64,000 bases of DNA from Thermococcus siculi (GTDB taxonomy: Archaea > Methanobacteriota_B > Thermococci > Thermococcales > Thermococcaceae): positions 1,364,001-1,428,000 of the forward strand of contig NZ_CP015103.1 of assembly GCF_002214505.1 (NCBI RefSeq), given 5' to 3'. Of the stretch, positions 3,357 through 52,022 are shown piece after piece. A program made the translations under genes and the position numbers. Under the pieces are notes generated by a model that searched no databases, was not told where the DNA came from, and saw only the letters and a list, made by a program, of their open reading frames with translations. Position 1 is the stretch's first letter. Every line of letters starts with the position of its first letter.

Positions 3357-4063
3357 AGGTCGTCCCGATAGTCATTAAGGAGCTAAAGGAGTACATGCTC
3401 AAACCGGGTTCAATAAGCTGGGGTCTGGTCTTCCCCCTGGTGTTCAGTCTGGCATTCATAGTCCGCTTTGGTGACATAGACCACCTGGCACCCGGTCTCG
3501 TCAGCATATCGGCGCTGTTCGCTACGACTTCATTCGTTGCCTCCTCCCTCATCTTCGAGAGAAGATTGAAAACCTTCGAGCGCCTCCTTCTGGCTCCAAT
3601 AAGCTACGGCGAGATAATCCTTGCCAAGGTTCTCGTCGGAACGCTGTTCGGCCTAATGGTGAGCGCCATAACCCTGGCCCTCGTCAAGTACTTCATGGTC
3701 TATCCCGTCTGGAGCTGGGGAATTACCTTCCTCGGAATCCTGCTGGCCAACTTCACCTTCTCGGCGATGGGCGTCTACATCTCGCTGGCAGTTAAAAATC
3801 CGATAAACGTCATGACGTGGCTCAACGTGATAAGACTCCCCATGATGTTCACGAGCGGCGCCATAGCATCGCTGACGCTCTTTCCTACCTGGTTCATCGC
3901 GATAGGCGTGATAACCCCGATGACGTACTCCGTTGAAGCCCTCCGCTACTCGCTCCTCGGCTACTACGACATAGTTCCGCCGCTCTACTCGCTTCCCCTG
4001 CTCGTCATCATGGCGCTCGTCTTCATGCTCCTCTCAGTGAGGAGCCTGAGGGGGATGTACTAG
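3353..4063 (+). CDS. ABC-2 type permease
   Basis: 236 aa integral membrane protein with about six hydrophobic helices, of the ABC-2 (NodJ/DrrB-like) exporter permease family, the partner of the ATPase immediately upstream. Start GTG 3353 is preferred over GTG 3344 because it forms a GTGA overlap with the ATPase stop and has GGGGGGTG about 8 nt upstream. Propeller, ATPase and permease make one transcription unit. The stop overlaps the convergent small membrane protein by 3 nt. Confidence 0.9.
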   Translation: MKVVPIVIKELKEYMLKPGSISWGLVFPLVFSLAFIVRFGDIDHLAPGLVSISALFATTSFVASSLIFERRLKTFERLLLAPISYGEIILAKVLVGTLFGLMVSAITLALVKYFMVYPVWSWGITFLGILLANFTFSAMGVYISLAVKNPINVMTWLNVIRLPMMFTSGAIASLTLFPTWFIAIGVITPMTYSVEALRYSLLGYYDIVPPLYSLPLLVIMALVFMLLSVRSLRGMY

Positions 4064-4233
4064 TCTCCCTTCGACATTTTATCGAGCTTCAGGTAGAAGA
4101 ACAGGATTATCATGAAGATCGTGATGTAGTAGCTCCACTGGAACGGTATGACGCCCATTATCCCGAGGGTGTAGACGACCGTGAGGACCAGCACTATCGC
4201 CAGGAGGATTCTGTAGAACGTCTTCTTCTCCAT
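4060..4233 (-). CDS. Small two-helix membrane protein
   Basis: 57 aa, beginning MEKKTFYRILL, with two hydrophobic helices (about 7-25 and 33-49) and a charged C-terminus. The ATG at 4233 has GGTGGT just upstream; a TTAAAAACC box at about 4263-4270 fits a promoter 30 nt upstream. A longer in-frame extension to 4296 would run through that promoter and is not favoured. Function not recognised. Confidence 0.65.
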   Translation of the reverse strand: MEKKTFYRILLAIVLVLTVVYTLGIMGVIPFQWSYYITIFMIILFFYLKLDKMSKGD

Positions 4234-4282
4234 GACACCACCGGTGTAAGTTGTGCCAGGGGTTTTTAATGATGTCCCATAA

Positions 4283-5335
4283 TCAGTATATGTCATCCTC
4301 GAGGATCATGAACGCCGAACTCACCGAGAAGGGGATTCCTTTCGCCCTCCCCTCACCTTCCAGCGATTTTATGAGACTCGCCAGCTCCTTTGCGATGTCG
4401 TTTTCGCTCCTGCTTCTCGATCTCCTTGCTGCACCGATGGCCAGCCTGAGACCATTGCCGTCGGGTATCACCCTGACCCATCTGACCTCTATTTCCTTAA
4501 GGGAGGAAACCCTCTCCAGAACCATGCCCTCTATCGCCCTCTCGTTCGTTCCGGTTGGGTTGCCCTCCTTCAACTTCAGGGCCAGCTCCGAGACACCCGA
4601 TTCCCTTAGCAGCTTCTCCACTTCGGCCTCGATCCGCTCCTTTCTTATTCTCCTGCCGAAGAAGCGCCCCTTTGAACCGACTGGTATCTCCACCACCCTT
4701 CCGCCCCTGATGGAGGGACCGGATGCTTCCACCCTGAGGATCGGTTTTGAAGGCACCCTTATGAACTCCATCTCAGTCAGGATAACCCTCACCTCAAATC
4801 CGGTTTCCTGTGAAATAACCCTGGAAAGCATGCCGGCCAGCTCATTTTTTCCGATTTCCTCGGTTCCGTAGGCCTTAAGGCTGCCCCTGAGTATGAGTAT
4901 GTCCCTCCCGGTGACCCCGTACGTTAGGGATGCCTTAACCTTGGCAGTCTCAACGGCGACTCCGAACCTCTTGTATACGTTGAGAACCGCCTTTTTGAGG
5001 GCCTCTTCAATCCTGAGGTATAGGTCGTTGGGGGCCTCGAGAACCGGGGCGAACTCGACCCTTTTGGGGCGAGGGCGCTGTCTATCCGTTTCCCCGGCAA
5101 CCCTTGGGGATTCCATCTCCAGATAGTCGAGAAACTCGAACTTGTCAAGCTCGAATACCTCAACGTCTTTCAGAACTTCCCCCGGATCAATGTATTCCCT
5201 GACGATTTTCCCGTTTGCCGCCAGGAACGCCTCTCTTCCCGAGACTCTGCAGAGAAGAAGCCTGTTTCCCATGGAGCCAACGAACCTGAGAACCTCATCC
5301 CTCGAAACAACGTCAAAGGATTTTACGGCCCTCAT
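4283..5335 (-). CDS. Uncharacterised protein, DUF2226-like architecture
   Basis: 350 aa soluble protein of unknown function. It has an N-terminal alpha/beta module (1-75), a charged linker (about 80-92, PRVAGETDRQRPRPKR) and two further alpha/beta modules. Its order and spacing resemble the larger protein at 10534-12276: compare KERIEAEVEKLLRESGVSEL here with KELLEKEVEQLLKQAGIDEL there. I infer the two are divergent paralogues of an archaeal family (DUF2226, from memory). ATG 5335 has GGTGAT 3 nt upstream and a TTTTTTATA box at about 5368-5378. A poly-Arg/Ser stretch (RRSRSRSEND, about 305-314) is notable. No catalytic motif seen. Confidence 0.65.
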   Translation of the reverse strand: MRAVKSFDVVSRDEVLRFVGSMGNRLLLCRVSGREAFLAANGKIVREYIDPGEVLKDVEVFELDKFEFLDYLEMESPRVAGETDRQRPRPKRVEFAPVLEAPNDLYLRIEEALKKAVLNVYKRFGVAVETAKVKASLTYGVTGRDILILRGSLKAYGTEEIGKNELAGMLSRVISQETGFEVRVILTEMEFIRVPSKPILRVEASGPSIRGGRVVEIPVGSKGRFFGRRIRKERIEAEVEKLLRESGVSELALKLKEGNPTGTNERAIEGMVLERVSSLKEIEVRWVRVIPDGNGLRLAIGAARRSRSRSENDIAKELASLIKSLEGEGRAKGIPFSVSSAFMILEDDIY

Positions 5336-27545: not shown

Positions 27546-27800
27546 GTGGGACTAACTAAGGTCGACACCAAGGGCAGGGTGGTCATTCCGAGGGATATCA
27601 GAAAAAGGATGGGGATAAAGCCCGGAGAAGAGTTCCTGATAACTGAGATAGATGGGGATACGATAGTCATGAAACGCTTCGACGTCAGGAAGATGCTCGA
27701 AGGAATGATAAAGAACGCCAAAGGCATCAATCTCGACGAACTCAAGGAAGAAACCGAGAGAGAGGGGAACAGAGTTGCGAAGGAGCTCTATGACCTCTAA
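27546..27800 (+). CDS. vapB: AbrB/SpoVT-type antitoxin (VapB)
   Basis: 84 aa. The N-terminal swapped-hairpin DNA-binding domain (TKVDTKGRVVIPRDIRKRMGIKPGEEF) is followed by a helical toxin-neutralising tail (RKMLEGMIKNAKGINLDELKEE). GTG 27546 fits GGTGGG 4 nt upstream and lies just past the transcription start predicted from TTTAAATA (27508-27515). Overlaps the PIN toxin by 11 nt; expected to autorepress the pair and bind the toxin. Confidence 0.88.
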   Translation: MGLTKVDTKGRVVIPRDIRKRMGIKPGEEFLITEIDGDTIVMKRFDVRKMLEGMIKNAKGINLDELKEETEREGNRVAKELYDL

Positions 27801-28203
27801 ATTTCTCTTGGACACCAACGTCTTTATAGCTGCGGTGAAAAAGGGATGGACGGACACCACCGAGCTCTTACTCCATATTTTATCCGGTGATAAATACCAC
27901 ATTATCGGAAATGACGTCCTGCTGGCCGAGTATCGGAAATACGCGGAGAGGCTCAATGCCAGGGATTTCTACGAGTTCCTAAGACTCAGAATGGAGATAG
28001 TTAATCCCACCCGAAAAGAGGTGCTTCGTCTCCTTCCTTACTTTCCTCCTGCCCAGATCGCCGATGCGGTGCACGCGGCCACCTGTCTGAAAACGGGGGC
28101 AGTATTGATAACCAATGACAGGCATTTTAAGAAGGTGGCCGAAGAAGGCCTGATTGAAGTGTGGAGCATAAGTGAAGCAATACGAAGGGTTCTGAGGAGG
28201 TGA
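27790..28203 (+). CDS. vapC: PIN-domain ribonuclease toxin (VapC)
   Basis: 137 aa. PIN fold with its acidic residues: LLDTNVFIAAV (first Asp), LLAEYRKYAE (Glu), ADAVHAATCL (Asp) and ITNDRHF (last Asp). VapC toxins cleave tRNA or rRNA with Mg2+. ATG 27790 follows GGAG and lies inside the antitoxin's end, giving coupled translation. The TauE gene follows 4 nt later, but with its own strong SD. Confidence 0.9.
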   Translation: MTSKFLLDTNVFIAAVKKGWTDTTELLLHILSGDKYHIIGNDVLLAEYRKYAERLNARDFYEFLRLRMEIVNPTRKEVLRLLPYFPPAQIADAVHAATCLKTGAVLITNDRHFKKVAEEGLIEVWSISEAIRRVLRR

Positions 28204-35023: not shown

Positions 35024-35215
35024 TTTAACCACCGTCCGGCAATGGCTCTGCCCCCTTATAAGGACTTCGCGTTAAAAGAATTACGGTGGGTTATTAAGTG
35101 GAGAGAAAAATATGCAGGGTTTGATATATCGCGGAAAAGCCTATAGCACCGCTCCAAAAACGCATGGGGAAACAAAAGCTCCCATCCTACTCGCCGAGCA
35201 GGCTCTTAAGTTTTC
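35024..35215. other. Intergenic stretch between MetRS and the AT-rich orphan
   Basis: 192 bases with the MetRS promoter at one end. No ORF with an SD, no C/D or H/ACA boxes and no tRNA signature found. Short complementary segments (GGGGAAAC / GCTCCCAT region at 35164-35185) could form a weak terminator for the orphan gene on the minus strand. Confidence 0.4.
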
Positions 35216-36064
35216 TCACGGCCTTTCACCCTTTTCCATCTCCTCAATCCTCTTCTCGATGTCCTTGATGGTTTCGGTGAGCTCGTCAAGCCTCACGCTG
35301 ATCTCCCTGAGGGTCTCGCTGATTTCCCTCAGCAGTCCCTCTACAGATGGTTCGATTTTGGCAGGTGTTCCTGCACCTCCGATGTCTCCACCTTTCTCTC
35401 TTCCGTATGCCATTTCCTCCAATTCGTGCTGTTTGAGTATTGCCACCACATTTTCTCTGATTCGATCCACATCAATGCCGTATTTTTTGAGTACTGCGGC
35501 AGGATCGTTGGACATATATGCGCTGTGAAGGATGTTTGCCACTTCTTCTATACTTCTCCTTGCTGTCAGGGATGATGCTATCTCTGCTGCTGCCCGCATG
35601 GCGCCTATGATTTTTTTTGTATCCTCCTCATCCAGGGGCACCCCTCTTTTTTTTGCGAAGAGTATGAAATTTTTTGCGTGTTCCTCTGGGTTTTCCTTTA
35701 CTTCTTTGATAAATTCTTCAAAATCGGTGGGCACTATGCTTAGGAACTCTGCCAGTGCGCTGGACACTCTAGGATCTCCTTTGGCTATTTTAAGTGCTAT
35801 ATGATCGAAGAATACTGCCCATAGTTTGTATTTTGACGCAGTCTCCCATGTGACGGGACGCCTCCCTATAGCTGACCCGTAGAAGCCGATATTTTCTCTG
35901 TATTTTTCTGGGTGTTCCTCCGCGGAATGTTTTATCCCTAACGCTTGAAGAAGTTTTGCTGCTGTTTCCGACAGATCCTTTTTTTCGGCCCCCGCGTCGC
36001 TTCCACTTATCTTGCTTGAAATTTCGGCGTATTTGTCTGCATGTTTTCGGTCTATGGGGTACAT
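35216..36064 (-). CDS. AT-rich orphan protein, helical with C-terminal coiled coil
   Basis: 282 aa, function not recognised. Mostly helical: KLLQALGIKHSAEEHPEKY near the N-terminus, a central part (WAVFFDHIALKIAKGDPRVS; IIGAMRAAAEIASSL), a Gly-rich hinge (GGDIGGAGTP) and a heptad coiled coil (EGLLREISETLREISVRLDE) at the end. Base composition and codon use (many TTT/AAA/ATA codons) differ strongly from the GC-rich neighbours. Coding-strand A8 runs lie at 35618-35611 and 35654-35647 and A7 at 35985-35979. Start ATG 36064 follows GGTGG by about 5 nt; GTG 36073 is possible. Probably horizontally acquired. Confidence 0.6.
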   Translation of the reverse strand: MYPIDRKHADKYAEISSKISGSDAGAEKKDLSETAAKLLQALGIKHSAEEHPEKYRENIGFYGSAIGRRPVTWETASKYKLWAVFFDHIALKIAKGDPRVSSALAEFLSIVPTDFEEFIKEVKENPEEHAKNFILFAKKRGVPLDEEDTKKIIGAMRAAAEIASSLTARRSIEEVANILHSAYMSNDPAAVLKKYGIDVDRIRENVVAILKQHELEEMAYGREKGGDIGGAGTPAKIEPSVEGLLREISETLREISVRLDELTETIKDIEKRIEEMEKGERP

Positions 36065-36229
36065 CTCATCCACCCACCATATCCCGGCAGTTTAGCTCCG
36101 ATTTTACAGCATCTCATTTATTCCAAAAGCTGGGGGATTCCCCTCTCAGAAAAATACGCTTTAATTCCTAAAACGCTTTCGAAACGGGAATCCTGCAAAC
36201 CCCGAAAGCCTTAAAAGTATTCGCGTCAT

Positions 36230-36251
36230 AATTATTCCCATGAGAATAATT
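36230..36251. promoter_or_regulatory. Inverted repeat across the start codon of the plus-strand AAA ATPase
   Basis: AATTATTC-N6-GAATAATT, perfect 8-bp arms; the spacer CCATGA contains the ATG at 36240. TATA CCTTAAAAG is at 36208-36216, so the repeat covers the transcription start of a leaderless mRNA. Could be an operator, or a hairpin masking the start codon. Confidence 0.45.
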
Positions 36252-37496
36252 CGCAGAAGAATAGAACTCTCGAAGCTTGAGGGCGAAGGTTGGAAGATGC
36301 TCTACGGCAGGAGAAAGACGGGTAAGACCTTCTTGGTTAGAAACTTCCTTGACTACGACGAGTTCTTCTTCGTTGAGCGGGATGGGCTGGTGAGGGATCT
36401 AAAGGACGGCTCAACAATGACCCACCGGGAGTTCATGAGGCTCTTCCCGCGCCTCCTGAAGGGCGGTAAGGTGGTGGTTGACGAGTTCCACAGGTTGCCT
36501 CCTGGGTTCCTCGATGCCCTCCACGCGTACTCCGGGAGGGGAGAGCTCATCCTGATAACTTCAACCCTCTGGCTTGCGAAGAGGAAACTCCTCGGAACGG
36601 GAAGCCCGCTCATAGGGGTTGTGGAACCAGTGAGAATAGGCCTCATAGACGAGAGGGAAATCCTCGTGGAGCTTTCGAGGGAGGTAAAGGGAAGAGAGCT
36701 CATCGAGGCCGCAACGTACCTCCGCGAGCCCCTCCTGGTGCCCCTCTATCGCCCACCGCTGAGGGAGTTCCTTGCGGATTACCTGTCATCTTCCGGTCTT
36801 CTCATTGGCGAGCTTGTGGGGGAGACCTTCACCGAGGAGGAGAGGGAACTGACCGAAGTTTACAGGGCTCTCATGAAGGGCATCGCCGATGGAAAGGAGA
36901 CGAGCACGGAGCTTTCGTCCCTTCTCTACTCCCTTGGCCTTATAAGCAAGGACAACCCAGGGGTTCTGCAGAAGTACCTCACCACACTCACCGACATGGG
37001 CATCCTGAGAAAAATTCCCGTAACGGGGAAGAGGAGGAAGAAGTTCGCTTACAGGCACTCCTCCCCGCTCCTCGACCTGCACTTCTACCTTGAGGCCAAG
37101 TACGCCTACACGGAACTCGAAACCCCGCGGGAGTTTATAAGAAAGGCGATAGACGAAAAGCTCCCGAGGCACGTTGAGGGCTTCATCGAGAGGTTTCTGG
37201 CCAAGGCCTACGGTCTGAGGCCGGTGAAGATCGAACTGCCGGACCTTGAGCTGGACGTTGCCCTTCAAGGGTTCAAGAGGCTTGAGCTTGTCGGAGAGGT
37301 CAAGTGGAAGAAGGGAATAAAGGCCAGCGAAATCCGCAGGGTCGAGGAGAAGCTGAGCCGCTTCAAATGCAGGAGAGTTCTCGTCGTTCCGGACGAAGGG
37401 GCACTTGAAAGAAAGCCGAGGGGAATAGAAGTCCTAACGCCAGAGGAACTGCTGGAGATCGCTGAGGAGAGCCTTGAAACTTCATTGGCCGGATAG
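36240..37496 (+). CDS. AAA-type archaeal ATPase with C-terminal nuclease-like (DUF234) region
   Basis: 418 aa. The short N-terminal P-loop domain has Walker A YGRRKTGKTFLV (about 22-33) and Walker B GKVVVDEFHRLP (about 78-90). A winged-helix-like middle (about 205-260: LLYSLGLISKDNPGVLQKYL) and a C-terminal domain with a PD-(D/E)XK-like pattern (LDVALQG... ELVGEVKWKKG, about 335-358) follow. Same STAND/AAA class as the convergent neighbour; the family is common in archaeal accessory regions, function unclear. Leaderless start 24-32 nt from TATA. Ends overlap the neighbour by 15 nt. Confidence 0.85.
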   Translation: MRIIRRRIELSKLEGEGWKMLYGRRKTGKTFLVRNFLDYDEFFFVERDGLVRDLKDGSTMTHREFMRLFPRLLKGGKVVVDEFHRLPPGFLDALHAYSGRGELILITSTLWLAKRKLLGTGSPLIGVVEPVRIGLIDEREILVELSREVKGRELIEAATYLREPLLVPLYRPPLREFLADYLSSSGLLIGELVGETFTEEERELTEVYRALMKGIADGKETSTELSSLLYSLGLISKDNPGVLQKYLTTLTDMGILRKIPVTGKRRKKFAYRHSSPLLDLHFYLEAKYAYTELETPREFIRKAIDEKLPRHVEGFIERFLAKAYGLRPVKIELPDLELDVALQGFKRLELVGEVKWKKGIKASEIRRVEEKLSRFKCRRVLVVPDEGALERKPRGIEVLTPEELLEIAEESLETSLAG

Positions 37497-38858
37497 ACCC
37501 TTAAAATCCCCCAAGTCCCAGGCCAAAAAGCCCTCTCCTCTTAGCCTTTCCTTCCCCTTGACCTTTTTGACGACCAGCCCGTAATGCTTCTCCCAGCCGT
37601 CAAGCCCGACGAGCTCGGCCTTTCTCTCCAGGTCTCTCAAAATTCCCCGGGCTTCCCTATCTTTCAGCTCTGTCCACTTGACCTCAGCGAAGAGGGCCTT
37701 CTTCTCGCGCTCGTTCAAAGCAACGAGGTCGATCTCCTCGTTCTTATGCCACCAGCGACCGATTTTGGTGAACTTAAACTGGAGCTTTCCGCGTTTGTTC
37801 AGCTCAATCAGAAACTGCTTTGCTATCCCCTCAAAGGTTAAACCGAGGTACTCGTTGAAATCGTCCTTTATATTCTCCACGACGTCGAAGCCCATCTCTA
37901 TCTCGTCCCTCCGAGGGAAGGCGAAGCGGAACCAGAAGTTGAAGAGGGCATCGCTTATCCTGTAAACGCCCCGTCCCCTGCCGACCACGGGCTTCTCCTC
38001 GAGTATGTAGCCCATCTCCTCCAGGACGTTGAGGTACTTGCCGAGGCTCTTCGTCTCTATTCTGGCCTTATCCGCTATCTGGCCAAAGCGTGTGTAGCCG
38101 AGCGCTATCGCCCTCAGGATTGAGAAGTACCGAGAAACGTCCCTGAGTTCCTCCTTGAGAAGGTATTTTGGCTCGTCATAGTACTTCGCCCCCTTCGAGA
38201 GGAGTAGCTCTCTAATATTGTCCCAGAAGCCTCTATCTGGGTCGTAGTCAGCCCAGTACTGAGGGACGCCGCCGAAGATCGAATAGACCTTAACGGCCGT
38301 CTCAATGTCAACCGGGTGGAACTCAAGGGCATGGAAGAAGCCTATCTCGTCCACCTTCCAAGCTCCGGTTCTCCTACCATAGATTGGCGACTTTGCCGAC
38401 AGCATGCCCTCCATGAATGAAACGAGGGAACCGCAGAGGACGAGCATTATCTTCGTGCTGGAGAGATGCAAATCCCAGTACTTCTGGAGCGTGCTGAGGA
38501 AACCTTTATCAGCCCGAGTTAGGTACTGAACCTCATCAATCACCACAACGAGCCTCTTCTCGCCTTTTCCAGCCAGATATGTGAAAAACGCCCCCCAGCT
38601 CCTCATGGGATTTTCTCTCAAAAAAGGGTCTTTGAAGTAGTCGGCCAGCCTTAGGGAGAAATCCTCTAGGTTGGTCTCGTTCTCCTCTGCCAGGAGGTAT
38701 ATCCCGTCGGTCTCCTCAAGGAACTTCCGCAGGAGATATGTCTTCCCTATCCTTCTCCTGCCGTAGAGGATTATAAGCTCCGCATTCCCCGAGTTATAGC
38801 GCTCCCTTAGGAAGTTCAGCTCTGCCTCCCTATCAACAAACTTACTCGTGAGTATCAT
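37482..38858 (-). CDS. Archaeal ATPase (ATPase_2 / DUF234 family)
   Basis: 458 aa. N-terminal P-loop (ILYGRRRIGKTYLLRKF, about 30-46), Walker B RLVVVIDEVQYLTRAD (about 108-123), and sensor region KIMLVLCGSLVSFMEG. A winged-helix segment (about 255-300: TRFGQIADKARIETKSLGKYLNVLEE) and a C-terminal DUF234 domain with nuclease-like core (EIDLVALNEREKKALFAEVKW) follow. Leaderless: TATA GCTTATAAG is at about 38878-38886. A palindrome GAGTAT-C-ATACTC (38850-38862) spans the start codon. Confidence 0.9.
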   Translation of the reverse strand: MILTSKFVDREAELNFLRERYNSGNAELIILYGRRRIGKTYLLRKFLEETDGIYLLAEENETNLEDFSLRLADYFKDPFLRENPMRSWGAFFTYLAGKGEKRLVVVIDEVQYLTRADKGFLSTLQKYWDLHLSSTKIMLVLCGSLVSFMEGMLSAKSPIYGRRTGAWKVDEIGFFHALEFHPVDIETAVKVYSIFGGVPQYWADYDPDRGFWDNIRELLLSKGAKYYDEPKYLLKEELRDVSRYFSILRAIALGYTRFGQIADKARIETKSLGKYLNVLEEMGYILEEKPVVGRGRGVYRISDALFNFWFRFAFPRRDEIEMGFDVVENIKDDFNEYLGLTFEGIAKQFLIELNKRGKLQFKFTKIGRWWHKNEEIDLVALNEREKKALFAEVKWTELKDREARGILRDLERKAELVGLDGWEKHYGLVVKKVKGKERLRGEGFLAWDLGDFKGLSGQ

Positions 38859-38862
38859 ACTC
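38850..38862. promoter_or_regulatory. Palindrome across the start codon of the minus-strand ATPase
   Basis: GAGTAT-C-ATACTC, 6-bp arms with 1-bp spacer, containing the CAT (reverse ATG) at 38856-38858 and the predicted transcription start. Same placement as the repeat at 36230-36251 on the partner ATPase. Confidence 0.4.
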
Positions 38863-38998
38863 TTAAGTAGGCTTTTGGACTTATAAGCCTTTCGAAGTTC
38901 CCGATACTAATCTAATTTTGAAGCCTCATAATATGTCACAGGCTGGGATTGAATAAAAGACCTAAGCGGGGATGATGGCAGATAAATCCTTCCCAAAC

Positions 38999-39256
38999 TC
39001 ACTTCCCAAGCGACAGCTCCTTCGCCCTCACAACCACAGCAGTCTCAGGCACTTCAACCTCACCGCGCGTTATTATTAGTGCCCCTTCGTAGGTCGTCAT
39101 GGTCAGTTTGACCTTCTTGAATCCTCCCGTTTCGCCGACTATCACGAGGGGCCTCTCCTTAAGCTCAAGGAACTTCCTAAAGGTTTCAGGCTCGACGAAG
39201 ACCAGAACTCCCCCGGCTATAATGCGGTTGGCATCGACGGCCATCCCACAGCCCAT
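38999..39256 (-). CDS. Small conserved-looking protein, unknown
   Basis: 85 aa, beta-rich (GGVLVFVEPETFRKFLEL, RPLVIVGETGGFKKVKLTMTT, GALIITRGEVEVPETAVVV). No family recognised. ATG 39256 follows GGTGAT by 4 nt; a TTG at 39271 is less likely. May be a small barrel; divergent from the PIN toxin module. Confidence 0.6.
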   Translation of the reverse strand: MGCGMAVDANRIIAGGVLVFVEPETFRKFLELKERPLVIVGETGGFKKVKLTMTTYEGALIITRGEVEVPETAVVVRAKELSLGK

Positions 39257-39357
39257 CGATATCACCCTCAACCGGGATGTTCGTTACTTGGCAAAATTAG
39301 CCTTTCGGTGGGGAAAGTTTATTTATTCCCGCCTTGAATTTATCATGGGTGAAGCAG

Positions 39358-39534
39358 GTGGAGAAAACAGGATATGTGGCCCTCAACAGGGAGTGGCGGG
39401 TCAAAATGGACAAACTCAGGGCAAAGGCGAGGGCGAACCTTGATGATGTCCTTAAACGGGCTTTTGGCTCCATAAAGTTCGAGAAATCCTGGCGTGAGCT
39501 GGAGGCTGAGCTCTATGAGGAGCTTTCTAGTTGA
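39358..39534 (+). CDS. Putative antitoxin of a PIN toxin
   Basis: 58 aa, charged and helical (EWRVKMDKLRAKARANLDDVL, KSWRELEAELYEEL). No AbrB or RHH motif recognised. GTG 39358 follows GGGTGA; TATA TTTATTTA is at about 39318-39325. Overlaps the PIN gene by 20 nt, the usual toxin-antitoxin layout, so assignment rests on position. Confidence 0.6.
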   Translation: MEKTGYVALNREWRVKMDKLRAKARANLDDVLKRAFGSIKFEKSWRELEAELYEELSS

Positions 39535-49757: not shown

Positions 49758-49985
49758 CTTCACCACCGTAGCTTCCTGGTAGCTCGTTGTTATAACTCTT
49801 GCCTTCTTTAACAACGTCCTTGTGATGCAGCGCCCTAAAGAGATACTCGCCAAGTCCTGTCAATATGCATGCGATATTAAGCAAATGTTTACGTGACTAT
49901 TGTAAACCTTATTGCCGCAATAATTTTGGGATATGCAAAATGTTTAATTGGATATACGTCGTATGTCTGTATGGGGTGTTGGACG

Positions 49986-52022
49986 ATGAAAGCCCTCATC
50001 GTCCTCTGGATAACCCTCTTCATTTTTGTAGGAACTGCCCCCCTTACAGGGGGTGCCGAAATTGGGCCTGCATTACAGGGTACATACTGGGTAGATGTTT
50101 ACATGAATTCCCGCGATGTTGCATCACTTTCTTTGACTGATGAGGGAAAGATTTTGGCCATTGGAGGATCGACCATCTGGATGATGGACACGGATGGAGG
50201 GATTGTATGGGCACACAGTATCGAGAACGTAACCCTAGGGGAGCTTAAACAAACGAGTTCAGGGGATTTCATCATGGCGGGGCGCTTAATCGACGGGTCC
50301 CTGTGGATCGCAAAAATCGGCGGGGATGGGGGTATAAAGTGGGGAAAGGCCTATGGACAAACCATCCGAGGCTACATATCTATATCGCTCGATTCTAAAG
50401 ATAACATTGTAGTTGCGGCTGATGTTGCACCAAGAGGTGTGTGGCTTCTTAAACTCGACAGAGATGGCTGTTTTGTATGGAGTATGACATTTCCAGGTCT
50501 GAGTTCTCCTTCCCTTGCTGTTGATACTTATGGAAACGTTCTCCTGGCAGGGGTCTCAGAAGGTTCTTTGGTGTTATTGAAACTAACTGGTGACGGGCAC
50601 TTGGCTTGGGCTAAAGAATATCTCCCTTCTCAGGGTTCTGGCCACTTCGTTAGTTTAGCGAAGAGTTCCCTCGTTGATGATAGCGGAGGTATTGTTATAG
50701 GGGGAACCTTTGTAAGCGGATTCTATTCGAATGCCTCTGTTTTGTACATCGACCATGATGGCAATGTGAAGTGGGCAAAAATATACGGAACGTCATCACT
50801 TGTTAGGATTAACGACTTAGAAACAGGCTCTCAGGGAGAAGTGATCCTGGGTGGGTTTGTAGCGAGCTTTATGCACCATCCGGACGGATGGATTATGGAA
50901 CTAACTCCCGGTGGGGAGGTGGTCTGGAGCGTTCTACTGGGCACAGAGGACAGTGCTGAGGAAATTCTCGATGTCGTGGTGGACTCTCAATCCAACGTTT
51001 TTGCTTCGGGTTACAAGGGGGTTAGGGGATTAATCGCCAAGCTACCCCCTTATGGATGTTTGGATGGATGCGATGTTATACGTGTGAGAACGCCCTCTGT
51101 GTCCTCAATAGAGCTAGAGTCCAAAAGCATAATGCCTGCCGTATCGCGGGAAGCCTATATTCCAGTTAAAGTTTATTACTCGATTTCTCTCTGGTTCCCC
51201 GAAGTGTCCAGAATCTGCGAGGTTACGCTCTCTGGAAAGCTCGAAGTATCCTCTGAACCCACCGATGCTGAAGTTGTCATTCAGGGAGAGTACTCTTCAT
51301 ACTCAGGGACAACACCTCTCTCGATTGAAGTTCCCGCGGGAAGATACAACGTGAGCGTTGTCAAAGATGAATACGAGAAATACAAAACAACGGTTTCTGT
51401 GGAAGTGGGGAAGACAGAGTCCATCTCCGTAACGTTGGTGCCAAAATTCGGTTATCTGAATGTGACGTCAGTCCCGGTGGATGGCGAGGTGTACGTGGAT
51501 AATTACTTTATTGGGACTACCCCTCTTGAAGAAATAAAGCTGTCAACGGGAACCCACGAGCTGAGAGTGAAGAAGGATGGATACGAGGAGTACGCTGAGG
51601 ACTTCGAGATACGTCCCGGTGAAACCACGAAGATACACGCTGTATTGGAGGCAAAGAGCGGGAATCTTCGCGTAAACTCGACGCTACCGGGTTTGGAGGT
51701 TTATCTGGATGGATCATACATAGGAACTACCCCTATAGAGGGTTACAAAACCTCGGCCGGGAAGCACTTCCTCAGGGTACTCAGAAGGGGCGAGGAGGTA
51801 TACAGTGGGATAATAACCATAGAACCCGGCGGCACCACGGTGGTGCACGTTGTGTTTTCTGGCTCTTCCGAGACTTCTACCGGAACTTCAACGGAGTCCG
51901 AAACGGATTCAACTACCAGCAGCACGGGTGGGACGTCCCCACCTGGAGGGGAGATATGTGGCCCCGGTTCTTTAATCTGGGTTTTGCTCCTCCTCGCACT
52001 GGTTAGACGCGGGAGGTCTTGA
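49986..52022 (+). CDS. Surface beta-propeller/PEGA protein with CGP-CTERM anchor
   Basis: 678 aa. Signal peptide (about 1-25), then a beta-propeller of SBBP-like repeats (about 40-355, recurring GDGGIKWGKAYG-type WAK.YG motifs). Three PEGA domains follow (about 415-485, 487-560, 562-625; each with GTTPLEEI-like turns and YEEY or GYEE segments). A Thr/Ser-rich stalk and a C-terminal ICGPGSLIWVLLLLALVRRGRS-type tail close it; this is the CGP-CTERM sorting signal of Thermococcales. The N-terminal two thirds is visibly more A/T-rich than its neighbours. TATA-like GTTTAATTGG is near 49937-49946. Probably attached to the cell surface; ligand unknown. Confidence 0.88.
   Translation: MKALIVLWITLFIFVGTAPLTGGAEIGPALQGTYWVDVYMNSRDVASLSLTDEGKILAIGGSTIWMMDTDGGIVWAHSIENVTLGELKQTSSGDFIMAGRLIDGSLWIAKIGGDGGIKWGKAYGQTIRGYISISLDSKDNIVVAADVAPRGVWLLKLDRDGCFVWSMTFPGLSSPSLAVDTYGNVLLAGVSEGSLVLLKLTGDGHLAWAKEYLPSQGSGHFVSLAKSSLVDDSGGIVIGGTFVSGFYSNASVLYIDHDGNVKWAKIYGTSSLVRINDLETGSQGEVILGGFVASFMHHPDGWIMELTPGGEVVWSVLLGTEDSAEEILDVVVDSQSNVFASGYKGVRGLIAKLPPYGCLDGCDVIRVRTPSVSSIELESKSIMPAVSREAYIPVKVYYSISLWFPEVSRICEVTLSGKLEVSSEPTDAEVVIQGEYSSYSGTTPLSIEVPAGRYNVSVVKDEYEKYKTTVSVEVGKTESISVTLVPKFGYLNVTSVPVDGEVYVDNYFIGTTPLEEIKLSTGTHELRVKKDGYEEYAEDFEIRPGETTKIHAVLEAKSGNLRVNSTLPGLEVYLDGSYIGTTPIEGYKTSAGKHFLRVLRRGEEVYSGIITIEPGGTTVVHVVFSGSSETSTGTSTESETDSTTSSTGGTSPPGGEICGPGSLIWVLLLLALVRRGRS

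Follow-up and report, generated by a model that had tools for sequence, protein, structure and literature searches.

Switching of coding genes between reading frames through changes in repeat length is well known in bacteria, but for archaea there are, to our knowledge, hardly any descriptions of it; in a 2025 review of phase variation (PMC11868660), archaea figure solely as a subject of surveys to come. PDC-S27, an ATPase fused to a PD-(D/E)XK nuclease, is common in Archaea and counts as an unvalidated defense candidate (2026 survey, PMC12988326). VARTIG is a hypervariable module confined to the Thermococcales and built on immunoglobulin (Ig)-domain proteins that are predicted to be secreted (PMC8416519). 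We analyzed a stretch of 64,000 nucleotides of Thermococcus siculi (NZ_CP015103.1, positions 1,364,001 to 1,428,000; hereafter the window) and, within it, the minus-strand gene at 35216..36064, an ATG-to-stop open reading frame (ORF) of 282 amino acids with a clean translation, which we call a member of the FAM family. The explanation that best fits the whole, and that we favor with modest confidence, is that this gene encodes a helical partner of the neighboring PDC-S27-type ATPases.

A preliminary description of the window had called the gene an orphan, which does not hold. Single-sequence searches returned homologues in other Thermococcus genomes (E values of 3.8e-12 and 2.7e-11) and weaker ones in its own genome, and a profile that excluded the window protein matched residues 94-200, within its helical core, with an E value of 9.7e-14. 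Profile searches placed the family in 52 of 94 Thermococcaceae genomes, spanning five of the six genera, whereas the 21 genomes from the rest of the phylum gave no match; no description of the family was found in a literature search limited to open papers. The structural part of the preliminary description fared better. AlphaFold2 models the protein as all-helical, with a core at residues 70-212 (35429..35857, minus strand; predicted local distance difference test score of about 85-95 over most of it) and a C-terminal coiled-coil helix of 39 residues (239-277; 35234..35350, minus strand), and searches against Pfam, PHROGs, NCBIfam and PDB sequences gave coiled-coil or chance matches only, in line with the claimed lack of a recognized domain. 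The helix stands where relatives have a shared C-terminal module, and similar tails occur at five other loci (L086, L094, L106, L111, and L222). The focal gene also lacks the junction repeat and the EISGK hinge of the main subfamily and represents a divergent branch. It is an intact, divergent member of a family that is specific to the Thermococcaceae and whose proteins are helical, modular, and fast evolving. This family resembles VARTIG in being a Thermococcales-only, hypervariable, and domain-shuffling module but differs from it in being helical, in having no Ig domain (Pfam finds none in the focal protein), and in its pairing with ATPase-nucleases. At one locus (L110:3899-5827, genome G005), the family core and a large C-terminal region form a fusion within a single open frame of 643 codons.

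The gene lies in an accessory island, as had been proposed, which takes the form of a precise 3.87-kb insertion (35129..38998). In seven other Thermococcus genomes, the aligned empty site joins the metRS promoter region directly to the small gene at 38999-39271, at its stop codon. The borders of the insertion are this promoter (..GATATA) and this stop codon (TCACTT..), and the end sequence common to both is TC only. Besides the focal gene, the insertion holds an AAA_14-like P-loop ATPase with Walker A and Walker B motifs and a C-terminal D..EVK motif (ATP_B; 36240..37496, plus strand), divergent from the focal gene, and an ATPase_2/DUF234 ATPase (37482..38858, minus strand); the three genes arrived together in this single event. 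Of the neighbors that had been assigned to the island, the ATPase pair is thus inside, whereas the PIN gene at 39494 is outside, with a counterpart of 92% identity in the same position in G029; the small gene upstream of PIN and the PTPS and DUF192 genes are likewise outside and conserved. No close syntenic orthologue of the focal gene was found, and an Rfam search of the island gave no match. We regard its family membership and its island nature as practically certain. In two genomes (G054 and G055), the same site is occupied by another insertion, about 0.9 kb long, the end of which resembles by eye the C terminus of a PIN (VapC) protein (L177 and L178, about 3900-4660); the region upstream of metRS is an insertion hot spot. 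Family members or their ATPases also adjoin metRS, on either side, at L063 (G020), L116 (G024), L089 (G007), L111 (G053), and L082 (G035).

Such an insertion might be a selfish mobile unit in which the ATPase-nucleases provide the means of movement and are helped or held back by the helical protein. The clean insertion into a site that other insertions also use, the patchy distribution of the family, and the nuclease motifs of the ATPases would all suit this idea. We nevertheless consider it improbable, as terminal repeats are absent apart from the shared TC, the island has no recombinase, and many family copies sit at sites that are unrelated and have no known borders in common; the lack of phage, plasmid, or viral-contig relatives in the searches given next also speaks against it. 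Nor did the viral or plasmid connection raised earlier find support: plasmid and viral-contig collections contained no relatives, phages contained none in a search made with the relative L079 only, and Foldseek comparison of the focal protein with PDB and viral models returned nothing below an E value of 0.2.

The recurrent neighborhood of the family argues for a partnership with the ATPases. Using four ATPase seeds and a limit of 1.5 kb, we found an archaeal ATPase next to 75 of 101 family loci, mostly of the ATPase_2/DUF234 kind, directly upstream and on the same strand; most of these neighbors are of the PADLOC type PDC-S27, i.e., an ATPase plus a PD-(D/E)XK nuclease. A 2-Mb genome contains up to about 10 such ATPases, and proximity by chance is estimated at a few per cent. 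The focal gene shares this arrangement, with ATP_B divergent from it and the DUF234 ATPase 1.4 kb upstream on the same strand. The latter is a P-loop ATPase fused to a DUF234 PD-(D/E)XK domain, with intact Walker A, Walker B, and D..EVK nuclease motifs, and it qualifies as PDC-S27 by its Pfam (DUF234, 7.2e-35; ATPase_2, 1.2e-27) and PADLOC (4.8e-49) scores. Its only sequence relative of solved structure is the Walker-type ATPase 2QEN of Pyrococcus abyssi (E value of 2.8e-9), which is unrelated to the focal protein. The focal gene itself is not PDC-S27. PDC-S27 has been described as a single-gene candidate, whereas the Thermococcaceae ATPases recurrently adjoin a variable helical partner gene. 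A functional link between the family and these ATPases is, in our view, highly probable. ATP_B was also considered as a constant companion of the family and was rejected as such, most family loci being without it; its head-to-head pairing with the focal gene recurs in one other genome (L086; 23% protein identity).

The modules of these ATPase-partner units evolve as a mosaic. Over 666 pairs drawn from 37 units, the identities of the ATPase, the core, and the C-module are essentially uncorrelated (Spearman coefficients of -0.10 to 0.01). One pair of units shares 0.93 identity in the ATPase, 0.11 in the core, and 0.89 in the C-module; in another, the values are 0.72, 0.86, and 0.23. Coevolution of the C-module with the ATPase, sought as a signal of docking, was thus rejected, and docking of the C-module can therefore only be inferred. 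The peptide FRQFLAEISGK separates the shuffling core from the C-module, and its third codon positions are conserved at about 0.76-1.0, compared with 0.3-0.5 in the flanks. The corresponding 20-bp stretch, GGCGGAGATCAGCGGGAAGA, at FRQFLAEISGKK codons (L059, L061, L079, and others) is conserved at the DNA level across four genera. With one mismatch allowed, this 20-mer has 41 matches in 27 genomes, whose coordinates place them at family loci; the reversed control has two. On one reading, it may act as a recombination hinge. The window gene does not have it.

The relatives further show frame breaks that depend on repeat length. At the 47 loci with alignable N- and C-parts, the two parts stand in relative frames 0, 1, and 2 in 13, 18, and 16 cases, a distribution not different from uniform (chi-square p 0.67), which puts 34 loci out of frame. 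Runs of A7 or longer or (TA)4 or longer sit at 28 of these 34 off-frame junctions, compared with 2.4% of C-part windows of the same length (P 7e-40). Pure TA tracts of 8 nt set frame 2 (7/7), those of 10 nt set frame 1 (5/5), and those of 18 nt set frame 0, the in-frame 12-nt versions being interrupted (L068, L079, and L091). TACA(n)TA runs behave alike, with A7 giving frame 1 (4/4 simple cases) and A8 giving frame 2, and tracts range from A5 to A8 and from TA4 to TA9 among the relatives. Errors in draft assemblies could explain single cases but not the overall pattern, and several cases come from single-contig genomes, including that of the window (L059 and L061). Both sides of the repeat are under purifying selection: off-frame pairs have a ratio of nonsynonymous to synonymous change (omega) of about 0.1-0.5 in either half. 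Even for L062 and L063, both of them off-frame alleles, the proportions of synonymous (pS) and nonsynonymous (pN) differences in the first 25 codons after the repeat are 0.85 and 0.05; pooled, they are 0.54 and 0.18. The relatives thus resemble bacterial phase-variable loci, in which repeats within the coding region likewise determine the frame, and differ from them in belonging to hyperthermophilic archaea, in their short tracts, and in being known here from one genome per species.

The majority of off-frame junctions might also reflect plain decay, i.e., a mixture of live genes and of pseudogenes first hit in their most mutable repeats, with the window gene as a live copy. Two copies, G011 L096 and G018 L074, are indeed clearly broken by several stops. 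We find decay unlikely as a general account, since nearly all aligned family cores are free of internal stops, the omega values hold for both halves of off-frame pairs, and coding constraint starts directly at the repeat. That same constraint in the first 25 codons speaks against two separate genes, a reading in which the C-part has its own start and its frame relative to the N-part is irrelevant. The near-uniform frames and the similarity of TATATATA to an archaeal TATA box would accord with separate genes, yet several off-frame C-parts have no ATG, GTG, or TTG ahead of the conserved residues, and some subfamilies carry A runs rather than TA. In addition, the model of L079, an in-frame member, predicts that the two parts form one fold unit, with the repeat encoding a strand of the hairpin that joins them. 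We hold separate genes to be very unlikely.

Programmed recoding would leave both halves conserved in off-frame alleles, as observed, if the ribosome or RNA polymerase shifted frame at slippery repeats so that these alleles yielded a full-length protein; most pure-repeat alleles are off-frame. A7 and A8 are classic slippery sequences, whereas (TA)n tracts do not belong to the slippery heptamers of ribosomes. For magnesium chelatase, a -1 frameshift at A_AAA_AAR has been proposed in archaea (PMC5009743). Some family alleles would require a +1 and others a -1 (+2) shift, even within one subfamily; in-frame alleles exist (L068, L079, L082, and L091), and the frame tracks tract length, which together make recoding an unlikely general solution. 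Slippage that turns the partner on and off would be favored in the relatives with a junction repeat, because the genome encodes EndoMS/NucS, which does not correct indels (PMC8228993), and its MutS match falls below the cutoff. Phase variation of the relatives is, to our mind, a serious possibility that falls somewhat short of probable.

The window gene differs from these relatives, as it has no junction repeat. As stated in the preliminary description, it is unusually A/T rich: its GC content (0.471, compared with a mean of 0.563 ± 0.029) and its GC content at third codon positions (0.48, compared with 0.73) both rank lowest among the 64 ORF-called genes of the window, and its lysine codons are AAA rather than AAG in a ratio of 21:6, i.e., 0.78 AAA compared with 0.18 elsewhere in the window. 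On the plus strand, it carries T8 at 35611, T8 at 35647, and T7 at 35979, i.e., coding-strand runs of A8, A8, and A7. The two A8 tracts, within the codons of TKK (35611..35618, minus strand) and AKK (35647..35654, minus strand), are the sole runs of eight in the window; a +1 or -1 change would truncate the protein at residue 197 or 152 in the former and at residue 145 or 152 in the latter. The same changes in the A7 tract, in the codons of EKK (35979..35985, minus strand), would truncate it at residue 91 or 41. The rarity claimed for such runs extends to the complete 2.03-Mb genome, which has 10 distinct tracts of A8 or longer; the focal gene holds two of them and a paralogue at 1,809,856 a third. 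The remaining seven are intergenic, in an array resembling clustered regularly interspaced short palindromic repeats (CRISPR), or at a frame edge; genome-wide, no such tract outside these two genes lies within a convincing gene on its coding strand. In a position-only test, at least 3 of 10 tracts falling in family genes has a P of 1.6e-6. The rarity nonetheless lies in the codon usage of the gene, of which the A runs are a consequence: its repeats do not exceed what its protein and codon usage predict. Within the C-parts of relatives, no internal breaks at A runs were seen. Phase variation of the window gene itself strikes us as improbable.

Elsewhere in the same genome, the CRISPR-like array (L240; G000:C1:1732133-1736140) contains one of the 10 A8 tracts. 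At a compositional dip of the window, 49893-52019 is a further AT-rich gene (GC content of 0.49) with PEGA domains, and the AT-rich PIN-domain gene at 27775-28200 (GC content of 0.49) is a second possible accessory toxin-type gene.

Taken as the partner of the neighboring ATPases, the focal protein would serve a conflict ATPase-nuclease as its variable sensor or regulator. Its helical core may bind a changing signal or target, its C-terminal part, a coiled coil in the window gene, may dock on the ATPase, and target binding might license the ATPase-nuclease against foreign genetic elements. The window copy has lost the N-part and the junction and stands in the intact state, with its A tracts as possible extra switch sites. 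Several points weigh against this reading. For 26 of the 101 family loci, the search with four seeds gave no ATPase within 1.5 kb. In the window, the focal gene is separated from the DUF234 ATPase by ATP_B and lacks the N-part as well as the shared C-module. Its A runs of seven or more number 3, compared with 1.67 ± 0.87 expected after synonymous shuffling of its own codons (p 0.17), which led us to reject an enrichment beyond codon usage. Among 22 pure-repeat alleles, a single one is in frame (P 0.0016 versus 1/3). A gene that is mostly off would account for this, as would recoding, and both are kept in view for this reason. Repeat lengths were compared between species, one genome each, rather than within populations. 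Finally, the defense role rests on PADLOC's unvalidated candidate label PDC-S27, and we see the chances of a conflict role of the family as evenly balanced.

More broadly, and still tentatively, the Thermococcaceae may possess a domain-shuffling conflict system in which PDC-S27 ATPase-nucleases are combined with hypervariable partners that are switched by (TA)n or poly-A tracts and reassorted at a 20-bp hinge. Such a system would be a first family of simple-sequence contingency loci in archaea. The PDC-S27 ATPases rank among the commonest archaeal defense candidates and have so far passed for single-gene systems with no known trigger; a partner gene that recurs and changes fast would supply them with a likely sensor or regulator. 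A hyperthermophile with NucS, which leaves indels unrepaired, and no recognized MutS would be a natural place for repeat-length switching, and genetically tractable laboratory strains of Thermococcus would permit such switching to be tested.
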